A DNA stretch of 64,000 nucleotides from Cyanosarcina radialis HA8281-LM2 (GTDB lineage Bacteria; Cyanobacteriota; Cyanobacteriia; Cyanobacteriales; CCAP-1448): positions 1 through 64,000 of the forward strand of contig JAHHHA010000012.1 of NCBI GenBank assembly GCA_019359615.1, given 5' to 3'. Below the pieces are notes generated by a model, which saw only the letters and a program-made list of their open reading frames with translations, was not told where the DNA came from and did no database searches. The position numbers were made by a program, and so were the translations under genes. Numbering within the stretch: the first letter of the stretch is position 1; each line of letters begins with the position of its first letter. Shown here piece after piece: positions 5,817 to 47,133 of this stretch.

Positions 5817-6866
5817 GTGAATGTATCTTCAGGGGAACAAGCAAAAACCCAAGTTCGTAAAGCCGATCACATTAGAATTTGTCTGGAGGAAGACGTTCAA
5901 TTCGATCGCACCACCAATGGCTTCGATCGCTACCGATTTACCCACTGCTGTTTGCCAGAACTCAACCTCAATGAAATCGATCTCTCCACTACATTTCTTA
6001 ACAAAACATTGGGGTCGCCGTTGTTGATTTCTTCGATGACTGGGGGGACGGAACAAGCGCAAACGATTAACTACCGTTTAGCAGAGGTCGCCCAGAATTA
6101 CCAAATCGCTATGGGTGTGGGTTCTCAGCGAGTCGTAGTGGAAAAACCAGAAGTTGCTAAGACATTTGCCGTCCGCTCTGTGGCCCCCGATATTCTCTTG
6201 TTTGCCAACCTCGGTGCCGTGCAACTCAACTACAATTACGGTTTAGGTGAATGCTTGCAAATAGTTGAATTATTAGAGGCAGATGCTTTAATTTTGCATC
6301 TCAATCCTTTGCAAGAGTGCATTCAACCGCAAGGAGATACTAACTTTCGGGGATTGCTCGATAAGATCGCCTTGTTGTGCGATCGAATGCCAGTACCAGT
6401 AATCGTCAAGGAAGTCGGTAACGGCATTTCGGCCCCGATGGCGCAGAAATTGATCGCCGCTGGCGTAGCCGCAATCGATGTGGCGGGTGCTGGCGGTACT
6501 TCTTGGGCTAAGGTAGAAAGCGAACGAGCCGAAAATCCTCAACAAAAACGCTTGGGAGAAACTTTTGCCGAGTGGGGCATCCCGACGACAGAGTGCATTA
6601 CCAGCATTCGGTCCGTCTCTCCCAGTATCCCTTTAATTGCCTCTGGAGGGCTGCGTAACGGCTTAGAAGCTGCCAAAGCGATCGCTCTAGGAGCCGATTT
6701 AGCTGGTTTGGCATGGCCGTTTCTCCAAGCTGCCAACGAATCGGAGGAGGCGCTGCACGAGTTAATGCGATCGCTCCTGGCAGAAATCGCCACAGTCTTG
6801 TTTTGCACTGGCAATGCCACCCTATTCGATTTCAAACATTCACATTGTTTGCAACGAGTAAGATAG
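5817..6866 (+). CDS. fni: Type 2 isopentenyl-diphosphate delta-isomerase (FMN-dependent)
   Basis: This 349-residue enzyme interconverts IPP and DMAPP in isoprenoid synthesis, using FMN and NAD(P)H. Family landmarks are [16 protein letters not shown] near the N-terminus, LISSMTGGT, the HLNPLQE motif, [11 protein letters not shown], and the FMN phosphate-binding [12 protein letters not shown] and [20 protein letters not shown]. It starts at GTG 5817. The stop lies directly against the composite repeat at 6868. It is co-directional with pyrR, 63 bases downstream. Confidence 0.95.
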
Positions 6867-6867
6867 G

Positions 6868-7029
6868 AGATGGGGAGATGGGGAGATGGGGAGATGGGGG
6901 GATGGGGAGAGCGAGAGGGCGAGAGGGCGAGAGGGAAACCTTATTAACTTCACACTCAACACTTCACACTCCATACTCAACACTTAACACTTCCAAAGCT
7001 TCTGAACTCCTGAACTCCTGAACTTCTCA
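6868..7029. repeat. Composite repeat, inverted relative of 2527-2755
   Basis: GGGGAGAT units are followed by GCGAGAGG units, then a shared non-repetitive joint GGAAACCTTATTAACTTC, then CACTCAACA heptamers and GAACTCCT units. Read on the minus strand, the order and the joint match 2527-2700, so the two form a large inverted pair around 2.7-6.9 kb. The end runs up to the sppA leader. Confidence 0.85.
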
Positions 7030-13499: not shown

Positions 13500-15131
13500 T
13501 TGAATCTAGATTGGTTCTATACCTTCCCCGTATTGGGGGACTATTATCGCATTCAATGGCAAATCGATGGGCAAGTACAACGCCATCTCGATCTGCTGCG
13601 ACATCGCCCAGAATTGGAGACTCCGGATCGATTATTGGAATTTTTACTCAGGAACATTATCGATCGTTCCAGCAGTAAGATCGCCAGCCAAGAGCGACTG
13701 AGTGGAGTTCGAGACTTACCCGCAGACTCTCAATGCAAGCTGTGTTACGCTTCGCCGCTTTCTAGGCAAGATAAGGGATCGCCTCCAACCGAGAACTGCG
13801 ATATATGTGGTTTTTGCATCAGTCATTTAGTGGCCTTTTTGTGCAGGTTTTGCGAGCCAGCAGCCAAGAAACTAGCGCGAGATTTGCAACTTTGGGGTCA
13901 ACTGAGCGATCCTGCTACATATTTCTCAGAACTTTTCCAGATTGCTTTGGGAATAGCCAGCCACCCTCAAGTATTTTTCCAATCCTTCAATCTTCAGCGA
14001 TTAGACTCCTTAGAGGGTTACATTCATACGCGGATGAGGGGGATAGTGCGTAAAGCCATAGCCAAAATGCCCAGCATGAGTACCTTTGGTCTGAGTAACT
14101 TGGGTTTGGCGGCTAGAAGCTCTCCCAAAGAGGTAAATGAATCGTTGGCACATTTGGCAATCGCCGAATCTCAAAGATGTGAGTTTATGGTGCTGCACCA
14201 ATGTCTTCAGGAAGTCAGACAGGCTTCTAATGTAGGGGTAAATGAATTTGAACGGCAGCATTTTCAACAGATTGCCGAGCTTTACGAACGGCGAGTGATA
14301 TCAAATCCGATTTTCATCCCACCCATTCAGCCCTCACCCCCAACCCCTCTCCCAAGCTTGGGAGAGGGGAGCCGGAAGTTCATTGAGGTCAAGAAGGTTT
14401 TGGAAACCGGATTTAGTATGGGTTCGTCTGAATCTTTGACTGCTGTGCGAGTAGAAGAACTTCTCAGAGAGATTGGTAATGCTATTAGGAAATATCGCGA
14501 TCGCTCTGTTAGCTCTATAGATAAACCCTGTTTTGATGGAGAAAATAGCGCCACCTCTTGTTTGTGGATCGATCGCCTCGAAGATCCTGGCTCTACTTTA
14601 GATACTAGTAGCCTGCAAATACAAGAATTTGATGAATATCTCGAACGAGGGGTAAACGAACTAGAGAAAACCCTGCATCAAATTCCCTTATTAATGCACG
14701 TTTGTCAGCTAAATGAAAATCAAATTGCTACAGAATTAAATTGCAGTCAATCTACCGTCAATCGTCGTTATTGGAGTATATTAAAAACCCTGATGCTTTA
14801 CTTGCAAAAGCAAAAATATTGGCAGATACAATCCCTGAAGCAGCTACTAGAAAATCTAAGTGCTGAAAACATCAAACAGATAAAAAAGATTGCAAAAGAA
14901 ATTTTAGAGTCGCACTATCAAAGAGTAATCGATCGCTTTTTTCAAGCATCGATCGAGGAGCTTGCTACTAGCATATCTATGACGGAACAGCCAGATGAAT
15001 TCAGGCGATCGCTCGTCCAACAACTGACCGAAAAAATTCAAGAATATATCGCTCTACCTTTAAAGCCTAACGGTGCAGCTTCAGACAAAATTACTTGGTT
15101 GGTTGACAGCCGATTAGAAAATTGGTCGTAA
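13500..15131 (+). CDS. Sigma-70-like / HTH regulatory protein of a CHAT-associated operon
   Basis: This 543-residue protein starts at TTG 13500, supported by GGAGG at 13486-13490. The helical C-terminal part includes a sigma region-4-like HTH (LNENQIATELNCSQSTVNRRYWSILKTL). Homologues of this kind are usually labelled sigma-factor-like and sit ahead of DUF1822 genes. Two unusual segments are seen. One is a Cys-rich stretch at about 79-120 (CKLC, CDICGFC, CRFC). The other is an in-frame repeat-derived stretch at about 267-307 (SPPTPLPSLGEG). Clear core-binding region 2 is not obvious, so true sigma activity is uncertain. Confidence 0.7.
   Translation: MNLDWFYTFPVLGDYYRIQWQIDGQVQRHLDLLRHRPELETPDRLLEFLLRNIIDRSSSKIASQERLSGVRDLPADSQCKLCYASPLSRQDKGSPPTENCDICGFCISHLVAFLCRFCEPAAKKLARDLQLWGQLSDPATYFSELFQIALGIASHPQVFFQSFNLQRLDSLEGYIHTRMRGIVRKAIAKMPSMSTFGLSNLGLAARSSPKEVNESLAHLAIAESQRCEFMVLHQCLQEVRQASNVGVNEFERQHFQQIAELYERRVISNPIFIPPIQPSPPTPLPSLGEGSRKFIEVKKVLETGFSMGSSESLTAVRVEELLREIGNAIRKYRDRSVSSIDKPCFDGENSATSCLWIDRLEDPGSTLDTSSLQIQEFDEYLERGVNELEKTLHQIPLLMHVCQLNENQIATELNCSQSTVNRRYWSILKTLMLYLQKQKYWQIQSLKQLLENLSAENIKQIKKIAKEILESHYQRVIDRFFQASIEELATSISMTEQPDEFRRSLVQQLTEKIQEYIALPLKPNGAASDKITWLVDSRLENWS
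14298..14420. repeat. Palindromic mosaic element inside a coding sequence
   Basis: The ends ATATCAAATCCG (14298) and CGGATTTAGTAT are near inverted repeats. The interior holds TCACCCCCAACCCCTCTCC paired with GGAGAGGGG around AAGCTT. The same element occurs between genes at 63219-63344 and, reversed, at 58445-58715. Here it is read in frame within the sigma-like gene. Confidence 0.8.
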
Positions 15132-23463: not shown

Positions 23464-23560
23464 GAACAGCCCTCACCCCCAACCCCTCTCCCACCTCACC
23501 CTGCCCTCTCCTACGAGGAGAGGGAAATGGAAGTTTCTTTTTACTGGAGAGGGGAGTATG
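23464..23560. repeat. Partial CCCTCACCCCCAACCCCTCT mosaic repeat
   Basis: It contains CCCTCACCCCCAACCCCTCT, CTCTCCTACGAGGAGAGGG and a second GGAGAGGGG. It shares the interior of the palindromic element (63219-63344) but lacks its ATATCAAATCCG ends. The rest of the 23414-23729 gap holds a TTGTGGGCTAGGCTTCCAGC-like repeat (23610-23640) and the galE leader. Confidence 0.7.
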
Positions 23561-29359: not shown

Positions 29360-29432
29360 TTGCCCTCACCCCCTCAATCCCCCTCTCCCGACCTCACCCC
29401 CAGCCCCTCTCCTGCAAGGAGAGGGGAGAGAG
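29360..29432. repeat. CCCTCACCCCC / GGAGAGGGG mosaic repeat
   Basis: CCCTCACCCCCTCAATCCCC is followed by CCTCACCCCCAGCCCCTCTC, then CTGCAAGGAGAGGGGAGAG. It is a partial copy of the palindromic element family, lying between the divergent-to-convergent ends of the flavoprotein leader and queA. Confidence 0.65.
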
Positions 29433-44059: not shown

Positions 44060-44347
44060 ATGTCGCCAATAACCCTAAATCAAAAGATTTCAGTTCCCGA
44101 AGACGTGCTGGTACAAGTGCTTGATGGGGAATCAGTGCTGCTGAACCTGCAAAACGAGCAGTATTATGGCTTGGATGATATCGGCACCAGAATGTGGGAA
44201 GTGCTGGCAGAAAGCCAATCGATCGAGGAAGCATATCGAGTATTATTAGCTGAATATCAGGTGGAACCAGAGCAGTTACGCCAAGATTTACAGGTCTTGC
44301 TCGAAAAATTGGTAGAACATGGGTTGGTCGAACTTAGTAATCCGTAA
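44060..44347 (+). CDS. Lasso peptide biosynthesis B1 protein (PqqD-like leader recognition)
   Basis: This 95-residue PqqD/RRE-fold protein (VLVQVLDGESVLLNLQNEQYYGLDDIGTRMWEVL...VLLEKLVEHGLVEL) binds the leader of a ribosomally made precursor peptide and presents it to the processing enzymes. It overlaps the B2 gene by 29 bases. Split B1/B2 proteins are typical of lasso clusters outside the microcin J25 group. It opens the cluster, which has no other gene in the 240 bases upstream. Confidence 0.92.
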   Translation: MSPITLNQKISVPEDVLVQVLDGESVLLNLQNEQYYGLDDIGTRMWEVLAESQSIEEAYRVLLAEYQVEPEQLRQDLQVLLEKLVEHGLVELSNP

Positions 44348-44846
44348 AGGATATAGCTTTTGGCAATTGCCGGGGAGCGATCGCCTATTATTGGTCCAAG
44401 CTTTGCTATTAATCCCCTTAGTAGCTATATCCCTCAAAGTTTTGGGATTTCAACGCACCCAAAGCCTTCTAACTCGCCTTGCCCCTCCATCGATCGCCGC
44501 TAGCCCAGATGTCGAGCGCTTTCCTCAAATTCGGACGACAGCCCGCATGGTGAAGATCGCCGTGCGGTATAACTCCCCGTGGAACAACTGCCTGAAACAG
44601 TCTTTGGTGCTGTGGTGGCTGTTGCGCCGCCAAGGAATCGATAGCGAATTGCGGATCGGTGTCAAACAAGCAGGGGGCAAGTTGGAAGCCCATGCTTGGG
44701 TAGAATACGACGGCCAGGTGTTGAACGATTCTTCAGACGTGCGATCGCGGTTTACCATGTTCGATCGAGCGATCGAGGTCATTAACAAGTCAAAAGTCAA
44801 CGCTTCGACAAGCTCAGCGTCCAGTCAAAAGTCAAAAGCTGTTTAA
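44319..44846 (+). CDS. Lasso peptide biosynthesis B2 protein (transglutaminase-like protease)
   Basis: This 175-residue enzyme cleaves the leader from the lasso precursor. The catalytic triad matches McjB: C91 (NNCLKQSLVLWWLLRRQGI), H125 (AHAWVEYDG) and D137 (12 residues after the His, as in McjB). An N-terminal hydrophobic segment at about 22-42 is usual. The last ~18 residues (from about 157) are encoded by small repeats (GTCAAAA and CGCTTCGACAAGCTCAGCG), so the C-terminal tail is probably a late addition. Confidence 0.92.
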   Translation: MGWSNLVIRKGYSFWQLPGSDRLLLVQALLLIPLVAISLKVLGFQRTQSLLTRLAPPSIAASPDVERFPQIRTTARMVKIAVRYNSPWNNCLKQSLVLWWLLRRQGIDSELRIGVKQAGGKLEAHAWVEYDGQVLNDSSDVRSRFTMFDRAIEVINKSKVNASTSSASSQKSKAV

Positions 44847-44920
44847 AAGGAGGAAGCTTGCACTCCCACCGAAAACTTTTCCCTTAAACAGGGAGGTTTG
44901 TACCAACTTGGCTTCGATTT

Positions 44921-46909
44921 ATGAGTGGAATTGTCGGCATTATTAACTTAGACGGAAGACCTGTCGATCGCGAATTATTGGCGCGGTTGACCGCTTTTAT
45001 GACTTTTCGCGGCCCCGATGCCCAAAGCATTTGGATCGATGGCGATCGCGGCGCTAGTGGTTTGACCTCACCCCCAGCCGACCTCTCCCCCTTCGGCAAG
45101 CTCAGGGCAGCGCCCGGCCCCTCTCCTTGCACGAGAGGGGAGAGTCTTGTCCCCCCCTTCCCTTGCAGGGAAGGGGGGCTAGGGGGGTTAGGTCATATCG
45201 GCTTCGGTCATACCCTACTGGAAACAACTTTTGAATCGGCTTGGGAACATCAACCCTGTAGTCTAGATGGTGAGGTCTGGATTACTGCTGATGCCCGCAT
45301 AGACGGACGTGCCGACTTAATTGCCAAATTGTCGATCGCCGGGGATGCGTCAGAGAAAGTCACAGATGTAGAACTGATTCTCCATGCTTATCGGGTTTGG
45401 GGCGCAGACTGCGTAGAACATCTCATTGGAGATTTTGCTTTTGCGATTTGGGACGGACGCAAACAACAGTTATTTTGCGCCCGCGACCAACTTGGCATCA
45501 AGCAGTTTTACTACGCCCAAGTCGGCAATACTCTGTTATTTAGCAATACCCTAAACTGCTTGCGACTGCATCCAGCGGTGTCCGATCGACTCAACGATCG
45601 CGCCATCGCCGATTTTCTCTTATTTGACTACAATTACCACCTCGATACCACTTTTGCCGATATTAAGCGTTTGCCTGCGGGGCACACTCTCATCTATTCC
45701 GATGCCGGCGTGCGCTGTCAGCGTTACTGGACTTTACCCGTTAAAGAACCCATTCGCTACCAAAAGGCAGAAGACTATGTAGAAAACTTCAAAGAGATCT
45801 TCTCTTTGGCAGTAAGCGATCGCTTGCGTCAAGAAAAAGTTGCCATCTGGATGAGTGGCGGGCTAGATTCCACTAGTATTGCAGCTACAGCCCTAGAGTT
45901 AAAAGCGCAAAAATCTCTGCCTTTAGATCTGCAAGCTTTCTGCACCGTCTACGATCGCCTGATTCCCGATCGAGAACGCTATTACTCAGGCATAGCGGCT
46001 GAAGCTTTAGGCATTCCGATTCACTACACCGTAGGAGACGACTATCAACTCTTCGAGCGCTGGGATACACCAGAACTGCGTCGTCCCGAACCCACTCACA
46101 ATCCGATATTAGCTACTGCTGTCGATAAATCCCAGCAGGTAGCAGCCCACAGTCGGGTGGTGCTATACGGGCAAGGAGCAGATGAAGTCTTATATCCGTC
46201 TAAAATTGCGGACATCTGCAAAACTATGCCCTTCAACTACCTAATCGCCGATATCGGCGATTGTCTCTTTACCCATCGGATACGCCCTCCCATTGGAATT
46301 GGAGTGAAAGCGCTTTGGCAAAGATGGCTCGATCGGATGCGCCAAGAGACTAATTTACCTTTACTCCCAGCTTGGCTGAATGAATCCTTTGCCCAGCGGC
46401 TGAATTTACGCGAACGCTGGCAACAGATAATGGAAGACGAACCACCTTTAATTCATCCTTCTCATCCCAAAGGCTATGAAAGAGCGATCGCTCCAATCTG
46501 GGCATCGGTTTTTGAACGCTCAGATCCAGGCGTGACCGGGATGCCCCAGGAAGTAAGACTGCCATTTCTCGACCTGCGCTTAATCGATTACGTGCTGGCT
46601 ATTCCTCCCTGGCCTTGGTGCATCCAAAAAGAAATGTTACGAACAGCCATGGAGGGGAAGTTACCAGAAGTTATCTGCCGTCGTCCTAAGACTCCGTTGG
46701 CGGGCGATCCTGTCAGTGTCTTGCTATCTCAAAGCAGTAGTAAGTGGCAAGAATTAGCGGCTACTCCAGAATTATGCGAGTATGTGACGCTCGACTCAGC
46801 TTGGAGAGATGCGATCGCCTGTAAGGGTCGATCTTGGGCGGCTTGGTCGGCTTTGCGCCCCCACAGTCTCAATTACTGGTTAAAATCGGCTCGAAATCTT
46901 TCCTGTTAG
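44921..46909 (+). CDS. Lasso cyclase (asparagine synthase-like, C protein)
   Basis: This 662-residue enzyme activates an Asp or Glu side chain with ATP and joins it to the N-terminus of the core peptide. The N-terminal amidotransferase domain starts MSGIVGI, so the catalytic Cys2 of asparagine synthetase is Ser and no glutaminase is expected. The PPi loop is SGGLDST at 312-318. Residues 48-91 (Pro/Gly-rich, LTSPPADLSPFG...) are an in-frame repeat insert absent from normal members of the family. The context (B1, B2, precursor, exporter) argues for cyclase and against a housekeeping asparagine synthetase. Confidence 0.9.
   Translation: MSGIVGIINLDGRPVDRELLARLTAFMTFRGPDAQSIWIDGDRGASGLTSPPADLSPFGKLRAAPGPSPCTRGESLVPPFPCREGGLGGLGHIGFGHTLLETTFESAWEHQPCSLDGEVWITADARIDGRADLIAKLSIAGDASEKVTDVELILHAYRVWGADCVEHLIGDFAFAIWDGRKQQLFCARDQLGIKQFYYAQVGNTLLFSNTLNCLRLHPAVSDRLNDRAIADFLLFDYNYHLDTTFADIKRLPAGHTLIYSDAGVRCQRYWTLPVKEPIRYQKAEDYVENFKEIFSLAVSDRLRQEKVAIWMSGGLDSTSIAATALELKAQKSLPLDLQAFCTVYDRLIPDRERYYSGIAAEALGIPIHYTVGDDYQLFERWDTPELRRPEPTHNPILATAVDKSQQVAAHSRVVLYGQGADEVLYPSKIADICKTMPFNYLIADIGDCLFTHRIRPPIGIGVKALWQRWLDRMRQETNLPLLPAWLNESFAQRLNLRERWQQIMEDEPPLIHPSHPKGYERAIAPIWASVFERSDPGVTGMPQEVRLPFLDLRLIDYVLAIPPWPWCIQKEMLRTAMEGKLPEVICRRPKTPLAGDPVSVLLSQSSSKWQELAATPELCEYVTLDSAWRDAIACKGRSWAAWSALRPHSLNYWLKSARNLSC
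45062..45193. repeat. Mosaic repeat inserted in frame in the cyclase gene
   Basis: CCTCACCCCCAGCCGACCTC, CCCTTCGGCAAGCTCAGGG, CCCCTCTCC...GGAGAGG around TTGCACGA and CCTTCCCTTGCAGGGAAGG are stacked hairpin-forming units that occur between genes elsewhere in the window (23464, 29360, 63219). Here they encode residues 48-91 with no stop codon. Confidence 0.85.
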
Positions 46910-46983
46910 ATAAACTCGCTCTCTGCTGACATAATTCTATAAGTAAGCTATAATCCTGTAGTTGCTCTATGAGGAGTAGAATC

Positions 46984-47133
46984 ATGTCCGACAATATACC
47001 AAAGCCTACAAGCAAGCCATATCATGCGCCAAATTTTACCGTCTACGGTAGCGTTAGCGAACTCACTAATAACATAGGTGCGGCGGGTAAGGTTGCTGAT
47101 GGCGGCGTAGCACCTACCGACAAAACAGCTTAA
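46984..47133 (+). CDS. Lasso precursor peptide (49 aa)
   Basis: ATG 46984 follows GAGGAG by seven bases. The leader region YHAPNFTVYGSVSELT (residues 13-28) fits the lasso leader rule Y-x2-P-x-(L/F)-x3-G-x5-T recognised by B1 proteins, with Y13, P16, F18, G22 and T28. The segment NNIGAAGKVADGG and tail VAPTDKTA follow. If the core starts at G32, D39 is at position 8, a normal ring size; a cut right after T28-N29 would place D39 at position 10, which is unusual. The gene sits between the cyclase and the kinase genes. Its small size explains why it is easily missed. Confidence 0.85.
   Translation: MSDNIPKPTSKPYHAPNFTVYGSVSELTNNIGAAGKVADGGVAPTDKTA

Follow-up and report, generated by a model that had tools for sequence, protein, structure and literature searches.

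A palindromic repeat element inserted in frame in a lasso peptide cyclase gene of Cyanosarcina radialis and in other protein-coding genes

The gene for a lasso peptide cyclase in the cyanobacterium Cyanosarcina radialis HA8281-LM2 carries within its open reading frame a 131-bp copy of a palindromic repeat element that recurs throughout the genome. We consider it likely, with a probability of roughly 0.8, that this is a mobile palindromic element of the kind represented by the Rickettsia RPEs and by intragenic REPs, whose sequence is read through in translation and accommodated as a floppy loop on the protein surface. Insertion is not peculiar to cyclases or to a non-catalytic domain, as the family has many further copies lying in frame in other genes.

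Results

Host gene and lasso peptide cluster

The DNA analysed here (from here: the window) is a stretch of 64,000 nt, positions 1 to 64,000 of contig JAHHHA010000012.1, from a draft assembly of 65 contigs totalling 6.5 Mb. It contains a lasso peptide cluster at 44060-47133, composed of the following genes:

44060..44347, + strand: B1, PqqD-like lasso leader-binding protein (PF05402; NF033536 under cut-off)
44319..44846, + strand: B2, lasso transglutaminase-like protease (NF033537 above cut-off; PF13471)
44921..46909, + strand: lasso peptide cyclase, AsnB-like, 662 aa, carrying the insert (ORF list; Pfam and NCBIfam)
46984..47133, + strand: likely lasso precursor peptide, 49 aa, adjoining the cyclase (NF033528 lasso_cyano, E 6.7e-5, under cut-off)

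The cyclase contains the Pfam domains PF13537, PF13522 and PF00733 (GATase_7/GATase_6 and Asn_synthase) and matches the NCBIfam lasso cyclase model NF033535 with an E-value of 1.1e-107, under the curated cut-off. The protein is AsnB-like and located beside B1, B2 and a likely precursor, as expected of a lasso peptide cyclase; the NCBIfam matches of both cyclase and precursor lie below their cut-offs. The nearest cyclases in the searched genome collection were cyanobacterial. Downstream of the cluster, profile matches point to a protein with weak similarity to HprK-related kinases, a methyltransferase and an ABC transporter.

Glutaminase amidotransferase domains usually possess Cys2 as the catalytic residue. 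In the window cyclase residue 2 is a serine, which is invariant across the 29-sequence alignment, and the amidotransferase-like domain of these cyclases is therefore presumably no glutaminase.

The C-terminal codons of the neighbouring B2 gene (KSKVNASTSSASSQKSKAV, 44789-44846) are made of (TCAAAAG)-type repeats plus CTTCGACAAGCTCAG; hence, the original end of this gene, too, has apparently given way to a repeat.

Boundaries and parts of the insert

The insert and the features related to it are located as follows:

45047..45196, + strand: 50 codons (residues 43-92) without counterpart in the orthologues (orthologue alignments)
45064..45194, + strand: palindromic element, 131 bp (genome-copy alignments, terminus search and fold)
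45050..45184, + strand: disordered loop in the structural model, codons 44-88 (AlphaFold2 pLDDT <50)
14328..14372, + strand: related hairpin repeat (CCCCTCTCCC-type), in frame in a 543-aa ORF at 13500-15131 (ORF list)

The initial annotation, made from the sequence alone, had reported hairpin repeats in frame in the cyclase and free of stops. This was borne out: the ORF of 662 codons remains open through the stacked repeats at 45062-45193, and the repeat stretch has a fold energy of −80.3 kcal/mol compared to a mean of −60.3 kcal/mol for shuffled sequences (z −5.06), with none of the 200 shuffles equalling it. The insert had been given as 44 codons (residues 48-91) between DGDRGAS and GHIGFGHTLL. 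An in-frame insert stood up to the analysis but its size and exact limits did not, because the orthologues run directly from WIDGN to VGFGH, so that RGASGLT and GH are extra as well. The 150 nt at 45047-45196 consist of the element plus 17 nt on its left and 2 nt on its right side. These 19 nt fall outside the element, which we count against our preferred explanation. They look vaguely as if the right flank had been duplicated and then degraded (RGASGLT / IGFGHT).

The element starts with the left terminus GACCTCACCCCC, followed by a sub-repeat containing CCTTCGGCAAGCTCAGGGC, a first hairpin (CCCCTCTCC/GAGAGGGG), a second hairpin (CCCCCCTTCCCT/AGGGAAGGGGGG) and the right terminus GGGGGGTTAGGTC. 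In the single-strand fold it is closed by the pairs GACCU/AGGUC. A palindrome of 131 bp with inverted ends agrees in size and in the inversion of its ends with elements of the RPE type. An Rfam scan returned four matches, none of them close to the gathering score, and searching the literature for strings of the insert peptide yielded unrelated matches only.

A special openness of the element was considered and rejected. The window copy is open in three of the six frames, compared to 1.3 for random genomic 131-mers and 2.5 for shuffles of the same letters, so that composition accounts for most of it. Within 40-nt cores, copies in ORFs and intergenic copies did not differ in the number of open frames (3.5 versus 3.3).

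Elsewhere in the window the repeats had been described as intergenic. According to the ORF list this is correct for the four sites at 23467, 29388-29430, 58636 and 63249 but not for the repeat at 14328-14372, whose host ORF has a weak sigma-70-like match downstream of the repeat. The window also contains two long heptamer/octamer arrays (GTGTTGA; CTCCCCAT) at 2516-2763 and 6860-7001, which are inverted to each other and 92% complementary over 120 nt.

The cyclase compared to its orthologues

Two sets of orthologues were used. The first comprised the best 28 of 80 loci from the genome-collection search, aligned with the window cyclase; all 28 lack the insert and join WIDGN to VGFGH, or a similar sequence, directly. 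For the second set, 195 genomes of the order were searched, 30 of which, including the own genome, matched at E ≤ 1e-60. Among these 29 orthologue loci, 27 had no extra residue, one had a single extra residue and one lacked the N-terminus; the 50 codons are thus absent from 28/28 informative orthologues of the order. The sets overlap, with at least two genomes apparently common to both (Argonema antarcticum A004/B2 and isolate PMM_0008 are suggested). Orthologues with a comparable insert at this position, which would have spoken against an insertion, numbered 0/28 in the first set and 0/28 among the informative ones of the order.

An AlphaFold2 model of the insert-bearing cyclase, built with the 28 orthologues, reached a mean pLDDT of 86.1 and a pTM of 0.88. 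The sole stretch of at least three residues with a pLDDT <50 spans residues 44-88, which the model places in the turn that links strand 34-39 to strand 92-99. The nearest solved structures are distant, the best match being a hydroxyamidotransferase (E 3.4e-22). The Pro/Gly-rich loop that had been proposed for the amidotransferase-like domain is hence supported by the in-frame position of the element and by the predicted disorder of these residues.

Whether such a loop is tolerated or has damaged the enzyme had initially been left undecided. In the latter case the ORF would be open by chance and the cluster decaying. This is compatible with the fact that a GC-rich sequence would have three of its six frames open in any case, and with the change of the near-invariant P195, a proline in 28/28 orthologues, to glutamine. 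However, among the columns that are conserved to at least 93% in the other sequences, P195Q is the only departure of the window cyclase, as few as in orthologues of the better half of the set. Moreover, the fold is kept in the model, B1, B2 and the likely precursor are intact beside the cyclase, and similar inserts occur in proteins that are the sole copies of essential-type genes (see below). We therefore regard damage as improbable, albeit as the most serious of the alternatives. The predicted fold, the single near-invariant departure and the Ser2 domain together favour a tolerated loop, and the insert most likely leaves a working cyclase. Residue 195 (45503-45505) belongs to the segment RD-LG-KP-FYY of the amidotransferase domain.

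The element family in the genome

Searching the own genome with the insert yielded at least 43 matches at E ≤ 1e-3, with 40 of 221 first-look candidates scored. In alignments the termini are conserved as GACCT[A/C]ACCCCC on the left and GGGGGGTTAGGTC on the right side. Between them lie one CCCCTCTCC-type and one CCCCCTTCCCT-type GC-rich hairpin, to which the window copy adds its sub-repeat. The exact 13-base right end occurs 24 times in the genome, compared to once per strand for a reversed-letter control. The ends GACCT[A/C]ACCCCC / GGGGGTTAGGTC form imperfect inverted repeats, as in elements of the MITE type. By eye, a longer palindrome, TTGATGCGATACA...TGTATTCCACTAATTTGAG, encloses several of the intergenic copies or has one arm in common with them (loci L164, L165, L174, L177, L181, L183 and L186); coding copies do not show it.

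No constant direct repeat indicative of a target duplication was seen by eye in the flanks of 18 coding and 24 terminus copies, nor did an unoccupied site in a close strain come to light, and it is by inference that we consider the element to move. As mobilizing enzymes, RAYT (Y1) transposases were considered and rejected. The genome contains five matches to the Y1 transposase family PF01797; ends of the element were found at 0/5 of these loci, two of which are flanked by a different hairpin, CAGGGGTT..AACCCCTG. Among the PF01797 transposases of the own genome, there was thus none associated with the ends of the element.

The family differs from GC-rich hairpins in general. Across 40 evenly spaced 20-kb stretches (800 kb in all), we counted 57 perfect GC-rich hairpins of this broader kind versus one in a Markov control. 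Only 13 of the 57 lay within ORFs of at least 150 aa, which make up 76% of the sample; the other 44 lay outside, which we count as a point against our preferred explanation. Some of those in ORFs are located near the N-terminus (e.g. 15-52 codons in) and may belong to mis-started genes, and seven of the 13 fall on a single 20-kb stretch with ORFs of the PKS/NRPS type. The broader class is depleted in genes, as expected, whereas the GACC...GGTC family is more often found inside them (11/24). On the PKS/NRPS-type stretch (L189, C21:60001-80000) the seven in-frame hairpin repeats are of several kinds and encode peptides such as PLPSLGEG, PLSQAWERG and PLKKGG.

Copies inside other genes

Counted over 36 genome stretches and the window, 18 of 43 element clusters lie wholly within ORFs of at least 240 aa. 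They are spread over 16 ORFs, i.e. the element is in frame in several unrelated protein genes, as are RPEs. Exact terminus copies are inside ORFs of at least 432 aa in 11 of 24 cases, the length of some of these ORFs being limited by the ends of the loci. No clear frame-broken gene was detected around the other 13 terminus copies when flanking ORFs of at least 100 aa were scanned. At one of them (L168), same-strand ORFs of 239 and 469 aa stand on either side, which we read as two genes with an AT-rich spacer between them. Because random insertion would keep the frame in about one case in three, 11 open frames out of 11 are unlikely by chance and point to selection for the host gene rather than for the element.

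In the host ORFs, Pfam domains were recognized across the insert or on both its sides. Products of the host genes include a CheA-like kinase, a metallophosphatase, an RPE65-like oxygenase, NirA with a ferredoxin domain, CoaBC (with the insert within the DFP domain), an epimerase-P450 fusion, a prolyl oligopeptidase, a PKS, a DUF4135/LanC (LanM-like) protein, a radical SAM/DUF512 protein and DNA polymerase I. When searched for further copies, the own genome gave a single match for DNA polymerase I and, at full length, a single one for CoaBC; as the sole copies found, the insert-bearing ones are presumably the working ones. A carotenoid-oxygenase-like host gene bears two insertions, and there the element seems to be inserted in the loop of another element's hairpin (L125 on C49, 6290-6400). 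Enzymes of RiPP biosynthesis recur as hosts, with LanM-like and YcaO proteins (L129, L321) besides the lasso cyclase at 44921-46909 of the window.

Orthologues of the DUF512 protein, CoaBC and DNA polymerase I were sought in 40 genomes, including the own, and 29 were aligned per gene. The DUF512 gene has a clean insert of 53 codons that is absent in 29/29 orthologues. In CoaBC the full length of the insert is likewise absent in 29/29, in a loop that is length-variable and where some orthologues have shorter inserts. The repeat of DNA polymerase I falls within a length-variable linker, for which the orthologue comparison was not clean.

The frames of these copies bear on two further explanations. 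The hairpin might be skipped or removed at the level of RNA or the ribosome, in a bypass-like manner, yielding a protein without the loop. The hairpins are very stable, and bypassed hairpin elements have a precedent in yeast mitochondria. However, open frames in 11/11 intragenic terminus copies would be unneeded if the hairpins were skipped, in a search for broken genes that saw flanking ORFs of at least 100 aa. Alternatively, the repeat might have been misjoined into the gene during assembly, as is conceivable for a draft genome of 65 contigs. Against such an artefact speak the element's length of 131 bp, which is shorter than usual sequencing reads, the frame kept in 11/11 intragenic copies and like insertions in independent genomes. 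Skipping and misassembly both appear very improbable to us.

Distribution across the order

With the 131-bp element as query, 40/195 genomes of the order, including the own, matched at E ≤ 1e-8, as a rule with the best four or fewer candidates scored per genome. The one other searched genome of the host's family gave no match at this threshold. The best copy per genome was in an ORF of at least 300 aa in 19 of the 29 genomes for which it was retrieved, a proportion that may be raised by the query, a coding copy whose best match may favour coding forms. Seven of 19 genomes with named records matched, and 12/24 of their copies are in ORFs of at least 250 aa, one of them (L395) near the N-terminus and another (L379) in a locus that ends at the contig end. 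At the level of the order, hosts include an Orn/Lys/Arg decarboxylase, a YcaO cyclodehydratase and CHAT-domain and AAA proteins. Nine hosts were scanned with Pfam, and two of them had no match. In CHAT-type proteins of several genomes (L182, L336, L340, L345, L381 and L385, with CHAT recognized by Pfam in L336 only), the element occupies one or the other of two loops, which precede the strand LVIVADG and follow YIPFAAL, respectively. These two loops are possible hot spots of tolerated insertion.

In three pairs of orthologues with 81, 87 and 88% amino acid identity, the insert is common to both members, at the same place and in frame; one pair contains a further copy in tandem. We also considered purifying selection on the sequence of the insert itself but dropped it, as in-insert synonymous/nonsynonymous codon counts of 1/4, 2/1 and 2/2 in the three pairs are too few. 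One could imagine that the cyclase loop was recruited, e.g. for contact with the leader, B1 or the transporter, and that its own sequence is under selection. It would fit that inserts in three other genes have outlasted speciation with little amino acid change. However, the same peptide occurs in unrelated proteins, the model gives no confident structure for the loop and the cyclase insert is present in one species only, which makes recruitment very unlikely.

Discussion

Palindromic elements in frame within genes are known as a kind. RPE and WPE elements occur in frame inside genes of Rickettsia and Wolbachia (PMC10969869, PMC2229807, PMC3767692), and an insert-bearing guanylate kinase was found to be translated and active (PMC2229807). 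As described there, these elements resemble the family reported here in being palindromes with inverted ends, roughly 100-150 bp long and spread over the genome, and in residing in frame in unrelated genes, at exposed sites and in common with the orthologues of related species (PMC10969869, PMC2229807, PMC3767692). They differ in phylum, sequence and termini, the elements studied here having two GC-rich hairpins and GACC...GGTC ends. Compared by description, membership in the RPE family is therefore not indicated, given the cyanobacterial host and the ends GACC/GGTC instead of the CGTC tag that is reported for R. conorii RPEs (PMC3733652).

The same source describes GTAG/CGTC REPs located wholly inside ORFs of several bacteria, DNA polymerase I included (PMC3733652). 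Like our family, these are short palindromes, single or as dimers, inside ORFs that include DNA polymerase I, and the nesting of intergenic copies in a longer palindrome resembles the GTAG-15 dimers of the cyanobacterium Anabaena variabilis, which are nested in longer palindromes (PMC3733652). In contrast, our element is a longer two-hairpin unit, without a GTAG/CGTC end tag and away from the Y1 genes of the genome. The features of RAYT-associated REPs or REPINs were thus missing on both counts: the conserved ends are GACCT.../...GGTTAGGTC rather than GTAG-type, and none of the five Y1 loci is flanked by them.

Similarities exist with cyanobacterial MITEs such as Nezha (named in PMC10969869), which are non-autonomous, short and with inverted ends. 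Different from these, no target duplication was seen by eye for our element and the PF01797 search gave no parent transposon. The PARCEL repeats share with our element that palindromic DNA encodes protein, but they are tandem amphipathic domains of 25 residues, while the element mostly encodes a single disordered Pro/Gly-rich loop (PMC2996958). No cyanobacterial family of protein-coding palindromes of this sort was found in the literature searched. As far as this search extends, the cyanobacterial family is new, and it is unusually widespread.

We propose that the element, a short palindrome with two GC-rich hairpins and imperfectly inverted ends, is non-autonomous and spreads through the host genome and those of other members of the order. 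It may insert anywhere, and copies that disrupt needed genes would be lost. Being rich in C and G, the element would have few stops, and an insertion would survive if its net length is a multiple of three and the frame stays open. The surviving inserts would then form Pro/Gly-rich disordered loops in surface turns or linkers. In the cyclase, the insertion would have opened a turn that connects two strands in the amidotransferase-like domain, which is non-catalytic, and the insert would be translated through.

More tentatively, as a view we hold well short of conviction, the order might host a long-lived family of protein-coding palindromes acting as natural linker-insertion mutagenesis. The element would be open in multiple frames, with about half of its close copies genic and inherited through speciation, and many enzymes, the lasso cyclase, LanM-like and YcaO proteins among them, would carry loops able to evolve roles.

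The best-known mobile palindromes in working genes are those of Rickettsia and related bacteria. Their occurrence in a free-living cyanobacterial order, with single-copy essential-type genes as hosts and inserts shared between species, could help to learn where in proteins loops can accept an insertion, for how long the inserted loops persist and whether any gain function. For annotators and enzyme engineers, it is also a warning that repeats are the source of some of the loops found in biosynthetic enzymes of cyanobacteria.
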